The notes under the pieces are model-generated. The model searched no databases, had not been told where the DNA came from, and was given only the letters and a program-made list of their open reading frames with translations. A program made the translations under genes and the position numbers. A stretch of 64,000 nt of DNA from Nocardia sp. NBC_00403. GTDB lineage: Bacteria > Actinomycetota > Actinomycetes > Mycobacteriales > Mycobacteriaceae. The first letter of the stretch is position 1. Each line of letters opens with the position of its first letter. Below, in pieces: positions 44,651-64,000 of this stretch. Location: assembly GCF_036046055.1 (NCBI RefSeq), contig NZ_CP107939.1:5332001-5396000 (forward strand), given 5' to 3'.

Positions 44651-45727
44651 ATGTACGCACTGCTATTGCGCTTGATGTTCCTGCTACCGCCGGAACGCAT
44701 CCACCATCTGGTCTTTGCCGCAATGAAACTGGCCGACCGCTTCCCGCCCTCGCGCTGGGCAATGTCGAAGGTCCTGGTTTCCGACGATCCCATTCTGCGC
44801 AACACCGCCTTCGGCGTCGAGTTCCCTGCGCCGCTCGGCTTGGCCGCCGGCTTCGACAAGAATGCCGACGGCGTCGACGCGTGGGCACCGCTCGGTTTCG
44901 GTTTCGCCGAGATCGGCACAGTGACCGCCCGGGCCCAGCCGGGCAATCCCGCCCCGCGACTGTTCCGGCTGCCCGCCGATCATGCCCTCATCAACCGGAT
45001 GGGCTTCAACAATCACGGCGCGGCCGCCGCGGCCGAGCAGCTGCGTGGCCGCCGCGGCGGAGTCCCGGTCGGCGCGAACATCGGCAAAACGAAGATCGTC
45101 GAACCGGAGGGCGCCGCAGCCGATTACGCGATCAGCGCGGCGCTGCTCGGTCCACTCGCCGATTTCGTCGTTGTCAACGTGAGCTCTCCCAATACCCCCG
45201 GCCTGCGTGACCTGCAGGCCGTCGAATCGCTGCGCCCGGTGCTGCAGGCCGTGCTCGACAGCGTGCAGGTTCCGGTGCTGGTGAAGATCGCCCCCGATCT
45301 TTCCGACGAGGACATCGACGCGGTGGCAGACCTCGCGGTCGAACTGCGCCTGGCCGGCATCGTTGCCACCAATACCACCATCCGCCGCGACGGTCTGCAC
45401 ACTCCTGTCGCCGAGGTCGAAGCCATGGGCGCGGGCGGCCTGTCCGGTGCTCCCGTCGCCGAGCGCTCCCTCGATGTCCTGCGCCGCCTCTACCGCCGCG
45501 TCGGCGACCGCCTTGTCCTCATCTCCGTCGGCGGCATCGAAACCCCCGACCAGGCCTGGGAGCGGATCCTCGCGGGCGCTACCCTGCTGCAGGGCTACAC
45601 CGGCTTCATCTACGGCGGCCCTTTCTGGACTCGCAACATCCATCGCGGCATCGCCGCCCGGCTGCGCGACAACGGGTACAAATCGATCGCCGACGCGATC
45701 GGCGCCGAGCACGGCGATCGCTCCTGA
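44651..45727 (+). CDS. pyrD: dihydroorotate dehydrogenase (quinone)
   Basis: PyrD class 2 oxidises dihydroorotate to orotate with FMN and a quinone, at the inner membrane face, in pyrimidine synthesis. The 358-residue protein has the N-terminal amphipathic helix region ([20 protein letters not shown]), FMN-binding [26 protein letters not shown], catalytic Ser in [15 protein letters not shown] and TNTTIRR, and [15 protein letters not shown]. It is 4 bp downstream of DUF5703. Confidence 0.95.
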
Positions 45728-46244: not shown

Positions 46245-46535
46245 TCACGAATGACTCCGGTCGAGCATCCGTTGATGCAACAGGCCGATGGCTTGCCGCA
46301 CGGTGATTCCGAGTCGATCGGCCAGCGCCTGCGCGGCGGGGTCCGATGCCAGGTCCGGATGGCTGAGGATCTCCTGCAGTTCCATGCCGGCCAGTGCCTG
46401 TTCGCGGGTCAGTGGCTGGGGCAACCAGCTCAGTCGCCACGCCGGTTCCTCGGGGCCTGCTCGCCATGCCCATTCGGGCGTGACGCTGCTGGTCATCGAC
46501 CGGCTGCTTTCGTAGATCGTCACGGCTGTCTCCAT
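46245..46535 (-). CDS. small hypothetical protein, tandem paralog B
   Basis: The 96-residue product from ATG 46535 contains RLSWLPQPLTREQALAGMEL and QEILSHP, then LGITVRQAIGLLHQRML. It aligns along its length with paralog A, so the two arose by duplication. The start is uncertain: 46535, GTG 46553 and ATG 46496 are all in frame, and none has a clear ribosome-binding site. Function is unknown; conserved Trp/Leu/Pro and Met/Glu/Leu suggest one structural unit. Confidence 0.6.
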   Translation of the reverse strand: METAVTIYESSRSMTSSVTPEWAWRAGPEEPAWRLSWLPQPLTREQALAGMELQEILSHPDLASDPAAQALADRLGITVRQAIGLLHQRMLDRSHS

Positions 46536-46553
46536 GGGCGGAGGAATCGTCAC

Positions 46554-46978
46554 CGATGCTGCGGCCGGGGAGCGTGGGCCCCGGTGGATCCGAGTAACTC
46601 GTATCGATCGGGTCTTGCTGCCATCGGAAGAAGCGGAGCGACGACGGTGGCTGATTTCTGTCGGATGTCCGGGTGAACGCGAACCGTTCGCCTAGACCGT
46701 GGCGCGGTTGGTCTCCTGCTCGGTTTCGGAGTCGCCGACGCGGTGTTGTCCGCGCCGCCGAGCATGTCGCATCAGGAGCAGCACCCTCATCACCAAACCC
46801 TCCCGAGTCGTCTGGTGGGCGATCAGATCGCCGAAACCAGTGTGGCATTTGCCCTTCATGATGGTCAATTGCCGGAGTAAGTTGGGGATTGCCGGATCGT
46901 GTTCGCGCTAAACCCCGATCGTCCGGTAGTTCGCCGGCAGAGCACAACGAATCGACAGCACCCAGGGAGGGGCGGATC
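46554..46978. other. 425-bp gap without a convincing gene
   Basis: No frame here has a family motif. The far right (AGGGAGGGG before TTG 46979) is the ribosome-binding site of the PfkB-fold gene, and the divergent promoters of paralog B and that gene must lie here. Confidence 0.4.
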
Positions 46979-48475
46979 TTGCAGAACCTTCCGCAGGACT
47001 CTCGCATGGTCGCGATACGCAATATCCTCACGCGGCTGTGCAAGTACTCCGGCCTGAGCTCGGATCGCTTGCGCAACACCGAGATCGATGTCGAGCCCTT
47101 GCTCGACCTGGTGGTCGTCCGGCAGCGCGCGCTGCGGACGGGCCGGTCACCGGAGGAATCCATGCTGCCCGTCGTCAGCGACATGGCACGCCGCTTGCAG
47201 CCGACCGACCGCTTGATCGCCGATGCGGCACTCTCGCTCGGGTTGTTTCGTGAAAGCCCCCCGGACGGAATCGATCTCGATCGCCTCTACGCCGAGAACC
47301 TCGGGCAGCGGCGGGAGTATCTGGCCGAGATGTGGCAGCGGTTGCACGAGACGCTGCGGGCCGAGGCCACTCCCGAGGCACCGACGGTGAAGCGGCTGCG
47401 CACCTCCTCGGAGCACGACGCGTTCACCGCGCTGGCCGGCCTGCTCGCAGGCGAATCCAGCTACACCATCCCGCAGATGGCCCCCACACCGAAAATCGTA
47501 GTGACGCTGCCGAACTCGCAGCCCCGACCGGGCATGGTGACGGTGGTCGGTGACGCGGTCATGGACCACCTCTTCCGTGTCGACCGCATCCCCGCGGTGG
47601 ACGCGCCCGCTCGTGGCAACGGCTACAGCGAGCATCCCGGCGGCAAAGGGCTCAACCGGGCGGTGGCGGCCGCGCGCCTCGGACTCCAGGTCCGCATCGT
47701 CTCCGCGCTCGGGGACGATGAAAACGGCCGTCGCATCAGGGCATACCTCGACACGGCCGGTGTCAGGACCGAGCTGATCAAGACCGCCACCCGCGCACCC
47801 TCACCGATCACCGCGGTCATCATGACCTCGAGCGGCGACATGGCGTTGATCGGTGTGCAGGACGATCGGGTCCGCTTGGAAGGAGCGGATCTCGATGGTC
47901 CGAATGTGCGTGCGGCGCTCAGCGCCTCGGATGTGGTGCTGCTGACATTCGAACACCCGATCGGCATCATCGGACAGGTGCTGGCCATGGTCGCGAGCAT
48001 GCGACCCAAACCGCGGTTGATCGTCTGTCCGACCCCGAGTCTGCGGGTACCACAGGATCTCTATCGCTATCTCGACGCGGTCGACTACCTGGTGGGTTCC
48101 GCGGACGAGCTCGACAAAATGCTCCCGGCCGTGACCACCGCGTCGAGCGACGATGTCGCGCAGCGGCTGCGCGGGCTCGGGGTCGGCGCAGTGTGCACGG
48201 TCGGCGAATTCCAGTGTGCGATGCGATCGGATCGGCTCAACGTCGACGTCACGCATTTTCCGCGGGCACTCAAGAACGCGCCGGGTGCGGCGGCCGCCTT
48301 CTCCGCGGCCCTCGCCTACCGGGTGGTCGTTTCGGAGGGGTCGCTCGGCCGGGAAGACCTCGACTGGGCGACCGCGGCCATGCTGTTGACGCAGAAGCTC
48401 GGTGACGTGCCGAGCGCCATGCCGCTGACCGGCGATATCGACCAGATCGTCGAGCGTTATGCCGCGAACCGGTGA
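46979..48475 (+). CDS. PfkB-fold protein with N-terminal helical domain; catalytic Asp missing
   Basis: From TTG 46979 (GGAGG upstream) the product is 498 residues. Residues 1 to about 170 form a helical domain without a name I know (KYSGLSSDRLRNTEIDVEPL). A ribokinase/PfkB fold follows: MVTVVGDAVMDHLFRVDRIP, HPGGKGLNRAVAAARLG, and the last motif NAPGAAAAFSAALAY. Active PfkB kinases have G-A-G-D here; Ala439 stands where the catalytic Asp should be. The protein is therefore probably a pseudokinase, perhaps binding a nucleoside or sugar to regulate. It is 137 bp upstream of tandem GTP cyclohydrolase II genes. Confidence 0.78.
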   Translation: MQNLPQDSRMVAIRNILTRLCKYSGLSSDRLRNTEIDVEPLLDLVVVRQRALRTGRSPEESMLPVVSDMARRLQPTDRLIADAALSLGLFRESPPDGIDLDRLYAENLGQRREYLAEMWQRLHETLRAEATPEAPTVKRLRTSSEHDAFTALAGLLAGESSYTIPQMAPTPKIVVTLPNSQPRPGMVTVVGDAVMDHLFRVDRIPAVDAPARGNGYSEHPGGKGLNRAVAAARLGLQVRIVSALGDDENGRRIRAYLDTAGVRTELIKTATRAPSPITAVIMTSSGDMALIGVQDDRVRLEGADLDGPNVRAALSASDVVLLTFEHPIGIIGQVLAMVASMRPKPRLIVCPTPSLRVPQDLYRYLDAVDYLVGSADELDKMLPAVTTASSDDVAQRLRGLGVGAVCTVGEFQCAMRSDRLNVDVTHFPRALKNAPGAAAAFSAALAYRVVVSEGSLGREDLDWATAAMLLTQKLGDVPSAMPLTGDIDQIVERYAANR

Positions 48476-48612
48476 GCATCGCATCATCGTGAACGGCGAC
48501 TTTTTACCACCATGCCTCGCACTTCATCTGCACGACACCACACATCCGCTACAGTCCCCGTCGTGACCACGCACATCCAACGGCGTCGCTCCAGCTCGGG
48601 TCCGGGGCAGCA

Positions 48613-49527
48613 TTGATCACAGCCGGGTCCCTACTCGGTGCGACCACTCATCGGTTCGCCCGCAAGGGACGCGAAATACAGGTTTCTGTCATGGAAGTCG
48701 CCGGTGGCGCCGAGTACGGATATGTACTGGTCTTCGGTGAGCTCACCGACGGGTGCCTGGTGCGGGTGCATTCCCGGTGTCTCTACGGTGATGCGCTCGG
48801 CTCCGACGACTGTGACTGCGGGCCCGAACTCGACAAGGCACTCGACCTCATCCAGGCGGCAGGCGCGGGCGTCCTGGTGTATCTGGAGCAGGAGGGCCGC
48901 GGCGTCGGGCTGATCGCCAAGGCGCGCGGCTATCAGCAGAGTGAGCGCACCGGCAGCGACACCTTCGCCAGCTACGAAGCACTCGGCTACCCGGCGGATG
49001 CCCGCACCTACAACCACGCGGCCAAGAGTCTGGTGCAACTCGGGCTGCGATCGGTGCAGCTGCTGACCAACAACCCGGCCAAGGCCGAGGATTTTCGGTT
49101 GGCCGGCCTTACGGTGACCGTCATTCCGCTGCGCACCCGTCCACTGAGCGCACGCGCCGCCGCGTATCTGGAGGCCAAACGTCGACGTCGACGTCATTGG
49201 ATTCCGACCGACGACGCGCCATGGGCGCCCGCAGACTGGGAATCGGATGCTTTGGGCACTTTCCCGGCCGTGCAGCGTCCACGCCGCAGTCGTCGACTCA
49301 GGGGCGTCCGCAAGAGTCGTCTGGTGTTCTGGCGGCGAACCTCCGCTGCCGCGGCGGAAGAGCCGAGCCACGATCCCGCCCCGCTGCCCGGGGCGATGCC
49401 GAGCGAAGCCGTCGCATACCTGCCTGCCGAACCGGGCCTGTCGGCCCCCGCCACGCAGCCCGCTGTCGACAATGCCGCGCAGCACATCGGTTACGAAGTC
49501 CCCCAGCGAGCCGCCGTCCCCGCGTAG
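48613..49527 (+). CDS. GTP cyclohydrolase II (active-site Tyr retained) with C-terminal extension
   Basis: GTP cyclohydrolase II opens GTP to the diaminopyrimidine that starts riboflavin synthesis. The 304-residue protein has Zn ligands in HSRCLYGDALGSDDCDCGPE, YLEQEGRGVGL, catalytic-position Tyr107 in KARGYQQSE, Asp/Arg in ADARTYNHA and LLTNNPAK. No DHBP synthase domain is attached, unlike most RibBA. About 100 C-terminal residues are basic and then Pro/Ala-rich. The TTG start is supported because the following gene, aligned, begins at the same point. Confidence 0.88.
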   Translation: MITAGSLLGATTHRFARKGREIQVSVMEVAGGAEYGYVLVFGELTDGCLVRVHSRCLYGDALGSDDCDCGPELDKALDLIQAAGAGVLVYLEQEGRGVGLIAKARGYQQSERTGSDTFASYEALGYPADARTYNHAAKSLVQLGLRSVQLLTNNPAKAEDFRLAGLTVTVIPLRTRPLSARAAAYLEAKRRRRRHWIPTDDAPWAPADWESDALGTFPAVQRPRRSRRLRGVRKSRLVFWRRTSAAAAEEPSHDPAPLPGAMPSEAVAYLPAEPGLSAPATQPAVDNAAQHIGYEVPQRAAVPA

Positions 49528-49622
49528 CAGTGCCATGGGAACTGACCTCCGGCTACCATGGATTCATTGTGCGACTGGCAATTTCACAGTTCGTGCACCG
49601 CTTCACTATGCATCGGAGGAGC

Positions 49623-50351
49623 ATGGCCAAAGCGGCACCGGGCCTCTCCGCCACCGGACATCGGCTGACTCGTAAGGGGCGTGAGCTCCGCGTCCGGGTC
49701 ATGCCGATTCCCGGTGGCGAAGACGGCGGTCATGCGCTCGTCTTCGGCGAGATCACCGACGGTTGTCTGGTCCGAATCCATTCCCGCTGTCTCTATGGCG
49801 ACGCCCTGCAATCCGAGGACTGCGATTGCGGTCCCGAACTGGACAAATCGATGGACCTCATCCAGAACGCCGGGTGCGGTGTGCTTGTGTATCTGGAGCA
49901 GGAAGGGCGCGGCGCCGGTCTGGTCAACAAGGCGCGCGGCCTGCGCACCAGTGAGCGTCTGGGAGTCGACACGTTCGACAGCTACGAGCGCCTCGGACTG
50001 CGTGCGGATATGCGGTGCTACCGACTCGCCGCCGAGGCGCTGACGGCACTGGAGCTGCGCTCGGTGCGGCTGTTGACCAACAATCCGGACAAGGTGCGTG
50101 CGGTGCGGGATCAGGGCATCGCCGTCACGGTGGTGCCTTTGGGGACGCGGCCGCGCAGCGACAAGGCGCGCAAGTATCTCGAGGCCAAGCGGGAACGTCG
50201 CGGGCACATGATCCCGCTCGAGGATGTGGGCTGGTCGTCGAGGTTTCGGCGGTCACATGGGCCGTGGTGGTGTCCGCCGGTGTCCTGGTGCATGCGGCGA
50301 TTCGCTCTCGCGGTGCGAACCGTCACGATCCCCGACGTCCGGTTACGATGA
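49623..50351 (+). CDS. GTP cyclohydrolase II paralog with Leu at the active-site Tyr position
   Basis: The 242-residue protein aligns throughout with its upstream neighbour (HRLTRKGRELRVRV, HSRCLYGDALQSEDCDCGPE, YLEQEGRGAGL, ADMRCYRLA, LLTNNPDK). Zn Cys residues, Asp/Arg and the Thr-Asn-Asn-Pro loop are retained. The Tyr of ordinary enzymes (E. coli Tyr105) is Leu107 here (KARGLRTSE). A Met at this position in one S. coelicolor paralog is known to stop the reaction at a formamidopyrimidine. ATG 49623 follows GGAGGA closely; GTG 49569 is an alternative. Confidence 0.85.
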   Translation: MAKAAPGLSATGHRLTRKGRELRVRVMPIPGGEDGGHALVFGEITDGCLVRIHSRCLYGDALQSEDCDCGPELDKSMDLIQNAGCGVLVYLEQEGRGAGLVNKARGLRTSERLGVDTFDSYERLGLRADMRCYRLAAEALTALELRSVRLLTNNPDKVRAVRDQGIAVTVVPLGTRPRSDKARKYLEAKRERRGHMIPLEDVGWSSRFRRSHGPWWCPPVSWCMRRFALAVRTVTIPDVRLR

Positions 50352-50420
50352 TTGTCTATCGAAATCGTTGTGGCCCTGAGCATCTGGCGGATTCTGGGGG
50401 TCGTTGCGACACGCTGTTGG

Positions 50421-50518
50421 TCAACTGGTTTCGGCCAGGAGCTCAGTCAGACGCTCGGCTGTGGTTTCCCAGCCGAGCGTTTTGCGTGGACGGGAGTTGA
50501 GTTCCGCGGCAGGGATAG
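50421..50518 (-). pseudogene. 3' fragment of an IS30-family transposase
   Basis: The minus frame ends with AAELNSRPRKTLGWETTAER then LTELLAE before TAG. This is the C-terminal signature of IS30-type transposases (LN-RPRKTLGW-TPAE). Its 5' partner may be the fragment at 52930-53206 on the same strand, now about 2.4 kb away. Confidence 0.7.
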
Positions 50519-50586
50519 TCGCCCGAGATCCGGCGCCGAGGAGTTCCGGCACACCGTCGAACCGACACAACCCGGGCGAGAACCCT

Positions 50587-50789
50587 CGCGGTTGACCCAC
50601 GCTGCGGAGAAGGGCGCGTCCACGCCGGTGCTGATGAAGCTGTCCGGGCATACGTCGGTTCGCGGCCTCGCGAAGTACGCGCGGGTGTCCGATGTAGGTC
50701 TCCTGAACTTCCAGGCCGACACCGATCCCGCCGCGCGTCGCCATGGCCAGCGGTCAGGCGAATTGTCTGTGGCCGGGGCAGGAACATGA
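50587..50789 (+). pseudogene. C-terminal relic of a tyrosine recombinase
   Basis: The frame reads RLTHAAEKGASTPVLMKLSG, HTSVRGLAKYARVSD and on to TGA 50787-50789. GHTS and YAR(V) are the last catalytic segment (His/Trp region and Tyr) of phage-type integrases. No upstream catalytic Arg domain remains. It is another fossil of a lost mobile element. Confidence 0.7.
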
Positions 50790-51002
50790 TGAGTATTGAG
50801 ACATCTATCCCGTTGCACGGCGCGGCATTCTTATGCCCTGTGCTCATGGAGTTGGCCCGCTGCCGACGCTGTGACCTGGGGTGGGCCGTCCTCGATGGCA
50901 GAACGAGCGTGTGACTTCACCGGTGCAGGTGGTCCGTTCGACTTTCCCGTTGTGCGAATCGGCATTTTATGGCTTCTGCGGCGCGCCGATACCGTCGGAT
51001 TC

Positions 51003-52454
51003 ATGGAATGGAATCTTCAGTCGGCAGAAGAACTGTTGGCGGCGTTGCGGGCCGGTGAGGTGACCTCGGTGGAACTGACCGAGGAGGCGATCGCTCGTAT
51101 CGAGCGGGACGACAAGGTGATCAACGCGATCTGTGTGCCGGACTTCGACCGTGCGCGGGCCGCCGCACGCGATGCCGACCAGGCGCGCGCCCGCGGCGAG
51201 GATCGGCCGCTGCTCGGCATTCCGGTGACGGTCAAGGAGTCCTACAACATGGCCGGGCTGCCCACGACCTGGGGCATACCGCAGCACGCGAACTATGTGC
51301 CGGCCGAGGACGCGGTGCAGGTGTCGCGGTTGAAGGCGGCCGGCGCGGTTCTGCTCGGTAAGACCAATGTGCCGTTGATGCTGCGAGATATCCAGAGCTT
51401 CAACGAGATCTACGGCACCACCAACAATCCATGGGATCACGGCCGCACGTCGGGTGGGTCGTCCGGCGGTTCGGCGGCGGCCCTGGCGTCCGGATTCGGT
51501 GCGCTGTCCATCGGCTCCGACCTCGCCGGTTCGCTGCGCACCCCCGCGCATTTCTGCGGTGTCTACGCGCACAAGCCGACACTCGGGCTGGTGGCGGCCC
51601 GCGGCATGGTCGCGCCGCCCGCGCCGGCCTTGCCGATCGACCTCGACCTCGCCGTCGTCGGCCCGATGGCGCGCACCGCCCGCGACCTCGCGCTGCTGCT
51701 CGACGTGATGGCCGGACCGGACCCGCTGACCCACGGCGTCGCCTACGACGTCGCACTGCCGCCCGCGCGCCACGAGCGGCTGTCGGACTTCCGTGTCCTG
51801 ATCATCGAGGACCATCCGCTCATTCCGACCGGATCGGCGGTGCGGGCGGGCGTGAACCGGGTCGCCGAGGCGCTCGTCGACGAGGGCGCCCGCGTCGAAC
51901 GGCGCAGTCCGCTGCTGCCCGATCCGACCGAAGCGGCGACGCTCTACATGCTGCTGATGCTGTCGAACGCCGCCGCAGGTATTTCCGTCGACGTGTACGA
52001 ACAGCTGCAGACCCACGCCGCCGCCCTGAGCGCGGACGACCGGAGTCTCGATGCGGCGCGGCTGCGCGGGATGGTGCTCAGCCACCGCAACTGGGTCGAG
52101 GCGAACAACCGTCGCGAACTCCACCGCCACGGCTGGCGGCAGCTCTTCGCCGAGCTCGATGCCGTGGTGTGCCCCATCACGCCCACCCCCGCCTTCCCGC
52201 ACGACCACAACGGAGGTCTGGAGAACCGGCACATCGACATCGACGGCGTCGAGTACCCGTACTTCGACCAGCTCGTCTGGGCCGGTGTGGCCACCATGCC
52301 CGGCCTGCCTGCCACCGCCATACCAGCGGGCCGGTCTCCCGAGGGTCTGCCGGTGGGAGTGCAACTCATCGGTCCGATGTTCGAGGACCGCACCCCGCTG
52401 CGGCTGGCCGAACTGCTCGAGCAGAAGATCGGCGGCTTCCAGGCACCGAAGTAG
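51003..52454 (+). CDS. amidase (amidase signature family)
   Basis: The 483-residue protein has the Ser-cisSer-Lys triad of the amidase signature family: Lys in IPVTVKESYN, the Gly/Ser-rich GRTSGGSSGGSAAALASG, and SIGSDLAGSLRTPAHFCG with the nucleophile Ser. It hydrolyses a carboxamide; the substrate is unknown. ATG 51003 (MEWNLQSAEE) starts the conserved region. The gene lies between IS30 fragments and beside a Tn3 relic, which suggests acquisition or local rearrangement. The 157 bp after it has no gene. Confidence 0.88.
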   Translation: MEWNLQSAEELLAALRAGEVTSVELTEEAIARIERDDKVINAICVPDFDRARAAARDADQARARGEDRPLLGIPVTVKESYNMAGLPTTWGIPQHANYVPAEDAVQVSRLKAAGAVLLGKTNVPLMLRDIQSFNEIYGTTNNPWDHGRTSGGSSGGSAAALASGFGALSIGSDLAGSLRTPAHFCGVYAHKPTLGLVAARGMVAPPAPALPIDLDLAVVGPMARTARDLALLLDVMAGPDPLTHGVAYDVALPPARHERLSDFRVLIIEDHPLIPTGSAVRAGVNRVAEALVDEGARVERRSPLLPDPTEAATLYMLLMLSNAAAGISVDVYEQLQTHAAALSADDRSLDAARLRGMVLSHRNWVEANNRRELHRHGWRQLFAELDAVVCPITPTPAFPHDHNGGLENRHIDIDGVEYPYFDQLVWAGVATMPGLPATAIPAGRSPEGLPVGVQLIGPMFEDRTPLRLAELLEQKIGGFQAPK

Positions 52455-56377: not shown

Positions 56378-56836
56378 GTGAGTCATGACACACTCGCGCC
56401 GGTCCTTCCGTCGTTCTCTGCGCTCACCGCCACCGATGGCCTTGCTGCGATTCCCGGTGCGCCGGGGTTGCCGCTGGGCAACGTCGAGCTACCGCCGAAG
56501 TCCTCGGCGGTACACAGCATCCGTCCGGTCGATACCAACGGGCGCGTGATCGATAAGGCCGTCCTGACCGCGTTGGATTGGCGTCCCGGGGATCTGCTGT
56601 CGTGGCGGATCAACGGCGGGTTGATCGTGATCACCCGCCCCGGCTACGGCCGCCGCGGCGTCACCAAGCACGGACACCTGTCCCTGCCCGCGGCCGTACG
56701 CCGCGGCGCATACATCGGCATCCACGACCGTGTTCTGTTGGCCGCCGACCCCGAACAGTCTCTGCTGGTGGTGTACCCGGCCCACGTGCTCGATGAGATC
56801 CTCGCGCGCCGCTTCGCCGAAGGAGCCGAGGCATGA
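56378..56836 (+). CDS. SpoVT/AbrB-like DNA-binding protein
   Basis: The 152-residue protein from GTG 56378 has swapped-hairpin-like repeats: RVIDKAVLTALDWRPGDLLS and LSLPAAVRRGAYIGIHDRVL resemble AbrB/SpoVT half-domains. It is probably a regulator of the integrated element. GTG 56369 is an alternative start. A 14-codon minicistron (56833-56874) links its stop to the integrase start by ATGA overlaps. Confidence 0.55.
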   Translation: MSHDTLAPVLPSFSALTATDGLAAIPGAPGLPLGNVELPPKSSAVHSIRPVDTNGRVIDKAVLTALDWRPGDLLSWRINGGLIVITRPGYGRRGVTKHGHLSLPAAVRRGAYIGIHDRVLLAADPEQSLLVVYPAHVLDEILARRFAEGAEA

Positions 56837-56864
56837 GCACGCGCACAGACTCCGACATCGCCGC

Positions 56865-57950
56865 ATGCAGATGATGATGAAAAGTCTCGGGCTCACCCTC
56901 GCCGATCTGGCATCAGGGCCCGAAACCGTTCGTGCGGTGCCGACTTTCGCTGAGCACATCCCGAAGGTGCTGGCATCGATGCCGCAGGGGCGCACCCGCG
57001 ATCACTACCAGACCTATTGGGACAAGATCCTCGCCCAGCCCGGGTGGGCCCAGCGGCGTCTGGACGAGCCGACGACCGCCGATTTTCAGGTGTTGTGTGA
57101 GGCGATCCGTGCACAGCGGGTGATCCGGCGCAGCGACCGCGGAGGCAACGATGTGGTGCGCCACGTCACTGACGCGTTGCGACGGCTGTACAGGCACGCC
57201 GAGGACAATCGGACGATCGATCCGCGTGACAACCCCGTCGCCGGGCTGAGGAAACCCAAACGCACCCGTTCCAACCGGCGCGCGCTGCCGGCGAATCTGC
57301 TCGCGCAGATCGTGCATGTTGCCTCGACCACGGGCAACGACCCCGAGCTCGACACCCTGCTGCTGCGGCTTCACACCGAGTCCGGTTGCCGCCGTGGCGG
57401 GGCGCTGAGCTTGCGTCCGCAGGACTTGGACCCGGTACAGTCGCTGATCCTGCTGCGGGAGAAGGGTGGCACCGAACTCTGGCAGCCGGTCTCTCCGACC
57501 CTGATGCGCGCGTTGTGCCGCCACGGCGAGGAGCGCGATGCGCTGCCGAACGAACAGCTACTGCGTGCGCGCGACGGCAAGCCCATCACCCGCCGACGCT
57601 ACAGCGCGCTGTTCGAACGCCTCGGCCGCCACCTGCCGTGCGTGCAGACGCACGGCATCTCCATCCACTGGCTGCGCCACACCACCACCACATGGATCGA
57701 ACGCCACTACAACCACGCCGTGGCCAGCGAGTTCGCCCGACACAGCCAGGCCAGCCGCGGCACCACCGGCATCTACACCACCGCCACCCTGAACGAAGTC
57801 GCCACCGCTATCGCTCACCTCACCGGTGAACCCCACCCCTTGGCCACGACAGAACCCAGCCTCGACCACGCCGGGAGCCGCGCAGCGATTTCCGGATCTC
57901 CGCCGAGCCTGCCGCCGCCGCGCGCTGGCATGTCGGGCCGAAACATCTGA
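56865..57950 (+). CDS. tyrosine-type site-specific recombinase (integrase)
   Basis: The 361-residue protein has a SAM-like N-terminal domain (TRDHYQTYWDKILAQPGW) and the catalytic domain with Arg in ESGCRRGGALSLRPQDL, HWLRHTTTTWIERHY (His-x-x-Arg), and Tyr in GTTGIYTTATLNEVA. The domain order fits phage/AICE integrases. It is encoded 600 bp from tRNA-Leu, the probable attachment site. The start is ATG 56865 or ATG 56871, which overlaps the minicistron stop. Confidence 0.88.
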   Translation: MQMMMKSLGLTLADLASGPETVRAVPTFAEHIPKVLASMPQGRTRDHYQTYWDKILAQPGWAQRRLDEPTTADFQVLCEAIRAQRVIRRSDRGGNDVVRHVTDALRRLYRHAEDNRTIDPRDNPVAGLRKPKRTRSNRRALPANLLAQIVHVASTTGNDPELDTLLLRLHTESGCRRGGALSLRPQDLDPVQSLILLREKGGTELWQPVSPTLMRALCRHGEERDALPNEQLLRARDGKPITRRRYSALFERLGRHLPCVQTHGISIHWLRHTTTTWIERHYNHAVASEFARHSQASRGTTGIYTTATLNEVATAIAHLTGEPHPLATTEPSLDHAGSRAAISGSPPSLPPPRAGMSGRNI

Positions 57951-62719: not shown

Positions 62720-63836
62720 ATGAGTAACGGTAGCGGTGTGTCCAGGGGTGATCGCAACCGCAACGCGCGGCTGGCTCGGTTGCGGAGGCTGGTCCCGACC
62801 ACGAATGCGATCGTCGGGATCGATCTGGCCGATCGTAAGCAGATGGTCGTCGTGTGTGACCACGACTCGAAAGTGCTAGCCCGCAAGACGTTCCGCTGCC
62901 GAGCCTGGGACATGGGCGCCGCTTTGGACTGGGCCGCGGCCCGAGCTGCGGCGGCAGGATTTGCCGGGGCGACGGTGGCGTGTGAGCCGACCGGGCATCG
63001 GTGGCGGGTGCTGGGACAGCTGGCCACCGATCGGAACATGTTGTTCGTCTGCGTGCAGCCAGCGATGACCGCCTGGTCACGCCGCGCCGAGGACCTCACC
63101 ACGGACAAAACCGACGAGAAAGACGCGGTGTTGATCGCGCGATTGACGGCGCAACTGCGCTGTTATGCACCCGAGCCTGTCGATGAAACCTGGAGTCGGC
63201 TGCGGCATCTGGGTGCCCGCCGCGAACAACTGCTGGTCGAGATGGTCGCACAGATCCAGCAGATCCGAGCCCTTCTCGAATGCGTGTGGCCGGCTGCGCT
63301 CGAGGCTGCCCAGCAGCCCTTCAAGTCACGGACCTGGATGGCAGCACTGCGAACGATCTGCGGCCGTGACGGCGGCGATTTCGCCCGCACTCGCCGGTTG
63401 GGCCGAGGCCGGCTCGAACGCCTCGTCCGCGGCGAGGTTACCCGTGGCGGCGCGAAGCGGCCGTGCTTTCGGATCACCGGAAAACTTTTTGCGGCACTGG
63501 ACGATCCGGCCGGGGTGCTCGCCCACCGCCGCGGAGCCCTGGAACGGGTGCACCTGTTGCTCGAAGACTGGGCCGAAAGCAAACGGCGCCTGGCCGATAC
63601 AGAGGCCCGAATGACCGGCGTGCTCGACGAGCTTCGGCTCACCGATCTGGTCACCTCGATCGTCGGGTTGTCCGCCGTCGGTGCCGCAGCGATCTTGGCC
63701 GAAACCGGCGACCCCACACGGTTTCCCACCGCCCGAGCGGTAGTCAAACACGCTGGTCTTGCGCCCCGGGAGAAGAAATCCGGTACCTTCACCGGCCGCG
63801 CCCGGCTCACCGGGGCGGGTCGCCCCGGACTGCGGC
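62720..63836 (+). pseudogene. IS110-family transposase, truncated by IS630 insertion
   Basis: About 372 genuine codons remain. The N-terminal DEDD RuvC-like domain has Asp in IVGIDLADRKQMVVVCD, Glu in TVACEPTGHRW and Asp residues in DKTDEKDAVLIARL. The C-terminal Tnp_IS116/IS110/IS902 domain is partly present (LTSIVGLS-like LVTSIVGLSAVGAAAILAE) and stops at GAGRPGLR. There the IS630 copy begins. The frame then runs 10 more codons in the IS to 63868. The Ser-containing end of the domain is lost. Confidence 0.88.
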
Positions 63837-63838
63837 TA

Positions 63839-64000
63839 GTGCCGCGTCAAGCAACCTTCGGTAGGTAATCCGGCAGCCGGATCTTGGAGTTGACGGCGAA
63901 CTCGCGCTTGGGCTGGGCGTGTTGGTTGTGCCAGCGGAGGTAGGCGCCGATCGCGGCGTCCTGTTCGCCGTGGCTGCAATGGTCGGTGCCGTTGAGAGCG
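63839..64000 (-). mobile_element. second copy of the IS630-family element, cut by window end
   Basis: 162 bp here are identical to 9557-9718 of the complete copy, including the GTGCCGCGTCAAG end. A TA dinucleotide precedes it at 63837-63838. The 3' end of the transposase frame is visible on the minus strand (KIRLPDYLPKVA). It interrupts the IS110 transposase gene. Confidence 0.92.

Follow-up and report, generated by a model that had tools for sequence, protein, structure and literature searches.

A PfkB-like gene and paralogous GTP cyclohydrolase II genes at a conserved chromosomal site in Nocardia

A conserved gene module beside pyrD

The analyzed window comprises 64,000 nucleotides (positions 5,332,001-5,396,000) of the 8.73-Mb genome of Nocardia sp. 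NBC_00403, which is assembled as a single contig. It contains three genes on the same strand, coding for a PfkB-like protein and two GTP cyclohydrolases II (GCHII-A and GCHII-B), which had been recognized in an original prediction made from the sequence and were verified by matches to the Pfam families PF00294 and PF00925 (Table 1). Furthermore, two features absent from that prediction were newly recognized: a family of small divergent genes, here termed c, and a conserved triple TTGCC repeat upstream of the PfkB-like gene. The module is located at one chromosomal site beside pyrD, which is conserved across the genus.

Table 1. Coordinates of the module and its left flank in the window.
Feature	Position	Strand	Remarks
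PfkB/ribokinase-fold pseudokinase, 498 amino acids	46979..48475	+	N-terminal helical domain at about residues 9-165; ribokinase-like domain at about residues 186-490
GCHII-A	48613..49527	+	Position 105 (E. coli numbering) is Tyr; Zn cysteines, Asp126 and Arg128 retained; long C-terminal tail
GCHII-B	49605..50351	+	Position 105 (E. coli numbering) is Leu instead of Tyr; Zn cysteines, Asp126 and Arg128 retained; start ATG at 49608 or 49623
Putative operator/promoter cis-element	46838..46914	.	CAGTGTGG, three TTGCC direct repeats, then GCTAAACC at 46907-46914
c1, 138 amino acids	45774..46190	-	No Pfam family; beta sheet and three helices predicted; mean predicted local distance difference test (pLDDT) score 83.8
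c2, second copy of the c family	46245..46553	-	102 amino acids as called, start uncertain
pyrD (dihydroorotate dehydrogenase)	44651..45727	+	Left flank of the conserved site, outside the module; in 78 of 78 syntenic loci

The PfkB-like protein was detected in 124 of 148 Nocardia genomes, after two of 126 matched genomes (G006 and G012) had been subtracted because their matches were at the level of ordinary ribokinases. For the comparison of gene neighborhoods, the non-syntenic ribokinases L098 and L099 were removed from 79 matched loci, and the remaining 77 together with the window gave 78 syntenic loci. These were selected by the presence of PfkB and originate from 78 of the 124 PfkB genomes. 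All 78 contain pyrD and PfkB, 73 a fadD-like ligase gene, 69 GCHII, 68 a PEBP gene and 66 an M20 peptidase gene. The usual order is pyrD, the divergent c, PfkB, GCHII, fadD, PEBP and M20; it is exact in 26 loci, the rest showing gains or losses, and species differ in how many copies of c, PfkB and GCHII they have. The conserved neighborhood in relatives, on which the original prediction had staked its reading, was thereby found, with GCHII present in 69 of these PfkB-selected loci and a same-strand GCHII beginning less than 1 kb behind a PfkB in 64 of the 78. Nine loci retain PfkB and lack GCHII. One GCHII copy lies on the other strand in four loci (L080, L085, L095, and L096), and the GCHII pair is therefore not always a single transcription unit.

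In the 24 genomes without a PfkB of this kind pyrD was located, and 20 loci from 19 of these genomes were read. This revealed 17 pyrD-fadD junctions from which both PfkB and GCHII are absent, c being retained in four. The remaining three loci are a second pyrD copy in G006, one locus in G091 and one in G081. Using a chosen threshold of more than 50% identity to GCHII-B (other matches do not exceed 49%), a GCHII of the module type is absent genome-wide from 22 of the 24 genomes. Of the two genomes that have one, G081 contains a PfkB remnant. In G091 (L251:9815-10902) one intact and one broken GCHII were found at a rearranged site with no PfkB found adjacent, which makes this genome a true exception to the joint loss. 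PfkB and GCHII have thus mostly been lost together. A Fisher test of GCHII presence (69 of 78 vs. 0 of 17 loci) gives p ~1e-12, a value that is descriptive only because it ignores shared ancestry, omits G081 and G091 and is based on loci chosen for PfkB.

The ratios of nonsynonymous to synonymous substitution rates (dN/dS, omega) in nine locus pairs range from 0.07 to 0.19 for PfkB and from 0.12 to 0.32 for GCHII, compared with 0.03 to 0.18 for the neighboring pyrD; both module genes are under purifying selection. This PfkB-like protein was found in no genus outside Nocardia by searches with the protein family, the N-terminal profile and peptide patterns in the GTDB collection. A broader search for the family in 201 genomes (E ≤ 1e-25) placed all 13 matches in one genus out of 31, the profile of the N-terminal domain matched three of 346 genomes of the phylum, all of them Nocardia, and the GTDB search, with two peptide patterns only, returned 26 named loci, all from Nocardia. 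Among the 120 listed of 266 PfkB relatives, the named organisms are Nocardia except for one labeled Streptomyces gardneri. Names encountered for module parts in public annotations include 'carbohydrate kinase' and 'hypothetical protein'.

The PfkB-like protein and the cyclohydrolases

The PF00294 match covers residues 216-474 of the 528-residue open reading frame (ORF) 46889-48475 (E 2e-23). A TTG codon at 46979 behind GGGAGGGG is a likelier translation start than the ORF start at 46889. The catalytic Asp of the GAGD motif was checked in 92 PfkB proteins, comprising 91 syntenic copies and L098. It is absent at the aligned position in all 91 syntenic copies, the window protein included, and the only sequence that has it is the ribokinase L098. 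The predicted assignment as a pseudokinase is therefore supported, genus-wide in Nocardia, on the basis of the aligned residues. The positions that presumably contact the sugar (ribose) in ribokinase (Asp16, GGKG, Asn46, and Glu143) are all retained in the window protein; among the 92 proteins the Gly-Gly pair occurs in 92, the Lys in 91, Asp16 and Glu143 in 89 each and Asn46 in 73. The helical nature that had been proposed for the N-terminal part agrees with the structure prediction, in which 129 of 176 residues reach a pLDDT of at least 90. Short second PfkB copies with neither the N-terminal domain nor the catalytic Asp occur in seven loci (L041, L042, L046, L050, L051, L052, and L053).

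Both cyclohydrolases match PF00925 well above the cut-off of 23.3 bits (GCHII-A: E 7e-41, 139.9 bits; GCHII-B: E 3e-42, 144.3 bits), and as predicted neither contains a 3,4-dihydroxy-2-butanone 4-phosphate (DHBP) synthase domain in Pfam and NCBIfam scans. Residues are numbered after E. coli GCHII, and the roles given to them are presumptive. In the 93 GCHIIs of the module loci (cluster GCHIIs), A and B included, the zinc cysteines (positions 54, 65, and 67) are present without exception, and Asp126 and Arg128 are retained in 92, with one gap. Position 105, for which the Tyr of GCHII-A and the Leu of GCHII-B had been read correctly in the original prediction, is Tyr in 54 cluster proteins, Leu in 36, Met in one, Lys in one and a gap in one. 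At two further positions most of the 93 carry Glu, 84 of them in place of Gln70 and 86 in place of Arg90. As a comparison set, 51 GCHIIs were used (30 loci returned by a search, including L001, together with L002 and 20 hand-picked proteins); all of them retain Gln70 and Arg or Lys at position 90, and at position 105 seven have Met and one has Leu.

A single GCHII copy is present in 45 loci and a double one in 24, of which 23 combine Tyr with Leu and one has Leu twice. Since the two copies mostly fall into separate groups, this pairing is largely inherited from an old duplication. The partial protein L071 was left out of the phylogenetic trees. When the 51 comparison proteins were included, the cluster GCHIIs were placed in one group with a support of 0.999, which also takes in E. 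coli GCHII; deep nodes of this tree are poorly supported (0.38-0.60), which bears on whether the cluster GCHIIs share a clade with the SCO6655-type proteins described below. When E. coli was omitted and six chosen outgroup proteins were used, the cluster GCHIIs form one group on a long branch (support 0.81). The trees thus set them apart from the actinobacterial comparison set and do not settle their deeper origin. The Leu proteins are found in one clade in 32 of 36 cases (support 0.93) and elsewhere in four, which means either repeated origins of Leu or an imprecise tree.

The upstream repeat and the neighboring genes

The element between c and PfkB has the layout GGCATTTGCC-N9-GGTCAATTGCC, with a third TTGCC after it. 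Spaced at a pitch of 20 bp, the three copies begin at 46849, 46869 and 46889 and span 46849-46893. A two-box score of at least 16 of 21 was reached by 71 of 84 upstream regions vs. 2 of 420 block-shuffled sequences, and a score of at least 18 by 49 of 84 vs. 0 of 420. Counted per locus, 69 of 78 score at least 16 and the other nine 14 or 15, which is chance level. In 47 nonredundant regions the information content is 0.91 bit in the motif vs. 0.15-0.16 bit in the flanks, a difference partly due to anchoring on the motif; the CAGTGT at the front, the third repeat and a downstream AAACC, none of which served as an anchor, are likewise conserved. A whole-genome scan for three repeats gave three matches vs. 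one for the reversed control, and only the one at the module lies in such a context. The nine loci without GCHII score 15-19 (L058, L062, L063, L077, L105, L108, and L109 at 16-19; L076 and L107 at 15), and the repeat is gone from three of the four c-retaining junctions without PfkB, L199 retaining it. On these grounds the repeat goes more closely with PfkB than with GCHII or c.

The c family was found in 76 of the 78 syntenic loci, and all 136 profile matches lie on the strand opposite to PfkB. A distant relative is located at L193:5620-6024 between a glnD-like gene and ffh (SRP54), and the gene sizes in L188 and L194 suggest the same placement.

The fadD-like ligase gene of most other loci was not found in the window, where its place (50352-52454) is taken by a recombinase-like ORF and an amidase gene. 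An amidase in this position occurs in one of 78 syntenic loci. The ORF 50352-50789 resembles by eye the end of a tyrosine recombinase and has no Pfam match. Further to the right a phage-integrase-family gene (56730-57950) and an IS110-type transposase gene (62720-63868) mark this part of the window as an accessory stretch. The original prediction had placed the three module genes themselves inside an accessory block; this does not apply to them, as they occupy a genus-conserved site, and it does describe what follows, where the amidase replaces the fadD-like gene. As had also been predicted, a Pfam scan of 20 ORFs in the interval 38673-63868 detected no riboflavin genes near the module. Elsewhere the host genome carries two RibBA genes (DHBP synthase with GCHII), and a search for GCHII alone gave a match in each of the 148 Nocardia genomes.

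Possible function of the module

In Streptomyces coelicolor, GCHII paralogues were reportedly described by Spoonamore et al. in 2006 (a study cited in PMC3509567), among them the SCO6655 type with a Tyr-to-Met exchange, which is said to form a formamidopyrimidine. Like these, the Nocardia proteins are stand-alone GCHIIs that an actinobacterium has in addition to RibBA, and one of them has lost the active-site Tyr to another residue. Unlike the SCO6655 type, GCHII-B has Leu instead of Met, which is found in only one of the 93 cluster proteins, and the Nocardia GCHIIs further differ from the S. coelicolor paralogues in Glu70/Glu90, the Tyr-Leu pairs, the adjacent PfkB-fold pseudokinase and their separate grouping. 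The PfkB-like protein shares the family match, the GGKG motif and mostly Asp16, Asn46 and Glu143 with the ribokinase/PfkB sugar kinases (PF00294), but lacks their GAGD Asp and has an extra N-terminal helical domain that was found in no other genus searched.

The best explanation of these observations, to which we tentatively assign a probability of roughly 40% for the whole chain, is a Nocardia-specific, self-regulated GTP-ring-opening module in which the pseudokinase senses a ribosyl-pyrimidine product. The Tyr-type GCHII would convert GTP to 2,5-diamino-6-ribosylamino-4(3H)-pyrimidinone 5'-phosphate, and the Leu-type, by analogy with the Tyr-to-Met protein reported from Streptomyces, may stop at or favor the 5-formylamino intermediate. 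Judging from its residue pattern, the PfkB-fold protein would transfer no phosphate and use its ribose-type pocket to bind a ribosyl-pyrimidine or another ribose-containing ligand. Its helical N-terminal domain, for which a sigma-4- or TetR-like DNA-binding fold is only a possibility, may then read out the ligand state at the three TTGCC repeats preceding the PfkB-like gene itself, and this readout would set the expression of PfkB and GCHII, perhaps also that of the small genes c. The purpose of the metabolite would be one other than the housekeeping flavin supply, which is covered by the RibBA genes elsewhere. The retained sugar-site residues, like the upstream repeat, are in keeping with the sensor role that had been suggested for the PfkB-like protein, whereas nothing observed speaks for or against the chaperone role suggested as an alternative. 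A product other than riboflavin is plausible in view of the missing riboflavin genes nearby, the GCHII group of its own, the Tyr-to-Leu copy and the two RibBA genes. Taken as a whole, the original interpretation is partly supported. A further elaboration, rather improbable at present, is a nucleotide-signal circuit in which the Tyr/Leu pair would set the ratio of deformylated to formylated ribosyl-pyrimidine and a kinase-derived regulator would read this signal at the triple-repeat operator; a GTP-level sensing system of this kind was not found described in the titles and abstract openings of the papers that literature searches listed.

GCHII-A and GCHII-B could instead be spare enzymes that feed the common flavin pool under special conditions, with the PfkB-like protein as modulator. 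Their intact metal-binding and most catalytic positions are compatible with this, and a divided flavin supply has a precedent in Sinorhizobium meliloti, where, according to PMC9478397, RibBA serves flavin secretion and other enzymes cover internal needs. However, no riboflavin gene lies among the 20 nearby ORFs, the genome has two RibBA genes, every Nocardia genome searched for GCHII alone has a match, most cluster proteins carry Glu70/Glu90, and a Leu partner is present in 23 of 24 pairs. We regard this explanation as unlikely. Similarly doubtful is a regulatory complex of pseudoenzymes, in which the GCHII homologues would be nucleotide-binding subunits of a PfkB-like regulator and not enzymes. 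The loss of the kinase Asp, the charge reversal at Arg90 together with Gln70Glu, and the nine loci with PfkB and no GCHII point in this direction, whereas the zinc cysteines in 93 of 93 and Asp126/Arg128 in 92 of 93 proteins under purifying selection would be unusual for a dead enzyme.

The pyrimidine nucleotide might also be the starter of a secondary metabolite, from which enzymes encoded elsewhere would make a pigment, a cofactor or an antibiotic. Changed activities of three Streptomyces GCHII isogenes, reported in PMC3509567, would agree with such a role, but no set of tailoring genes was found among the gene clusters common to many loci around the module, and we regard it as distinctly unlikely. 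Least probable, and by a clear step, is a GTP-depleting stress or anti-phage module triggered via the PfkB sensor. The species-to-species variation in the number of c, PfkB and GCHII copies would suit it; against it stand the fixed chromosomal site beside pyrD and the absence of any PADLOC family for the five proteins scanned at E ≤ 0.01 and of a phage match for c1. In addition, none of the 15 plasmid records matching the PfkB-like protein extends over 80% of its length, and a ribokinase annotation is carried by most of the ten that were listed.

For the self-regulated module, known systems offer partial parallels. Yeast Gal3p binds its ligand without catalysis and acts on a transcription inhibitor, and the plastid proteins FLN1 and FLN2, also of the PfkB type, belong to a transcription complex in which their role is called unknown (PMC3409070). 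They resemble the proposed Nocardia regulator as sugar-kinase-like proteins in regulation, with other organisms and partners. Riboflavin synthesis has a formamidopyrimidine branch with GTP cyclohydrolase III (GCHIII)/ArfB in archaea and the formamidase BrbF in rhizobia, as described in PMC9478397, and its formylamino-pyrimidine intermediate would be common to the Nocardia module if GCHII-B stops early. Unlike the rhizobial branch, the Nocardia loci have no formamidase among their common genes, the amidase being confined to the window.

The module constitutes a genus-wide, selectively maintained gene set that resembles a branch off GTP metabolism and points to a use of GTP outside vitamin making. 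Within it, a sugar-kinase fold seems to have been turned into a sensor with a dedicated control element, and the Tyr/Leu pair provides natural material for studying product choice in GCHII.

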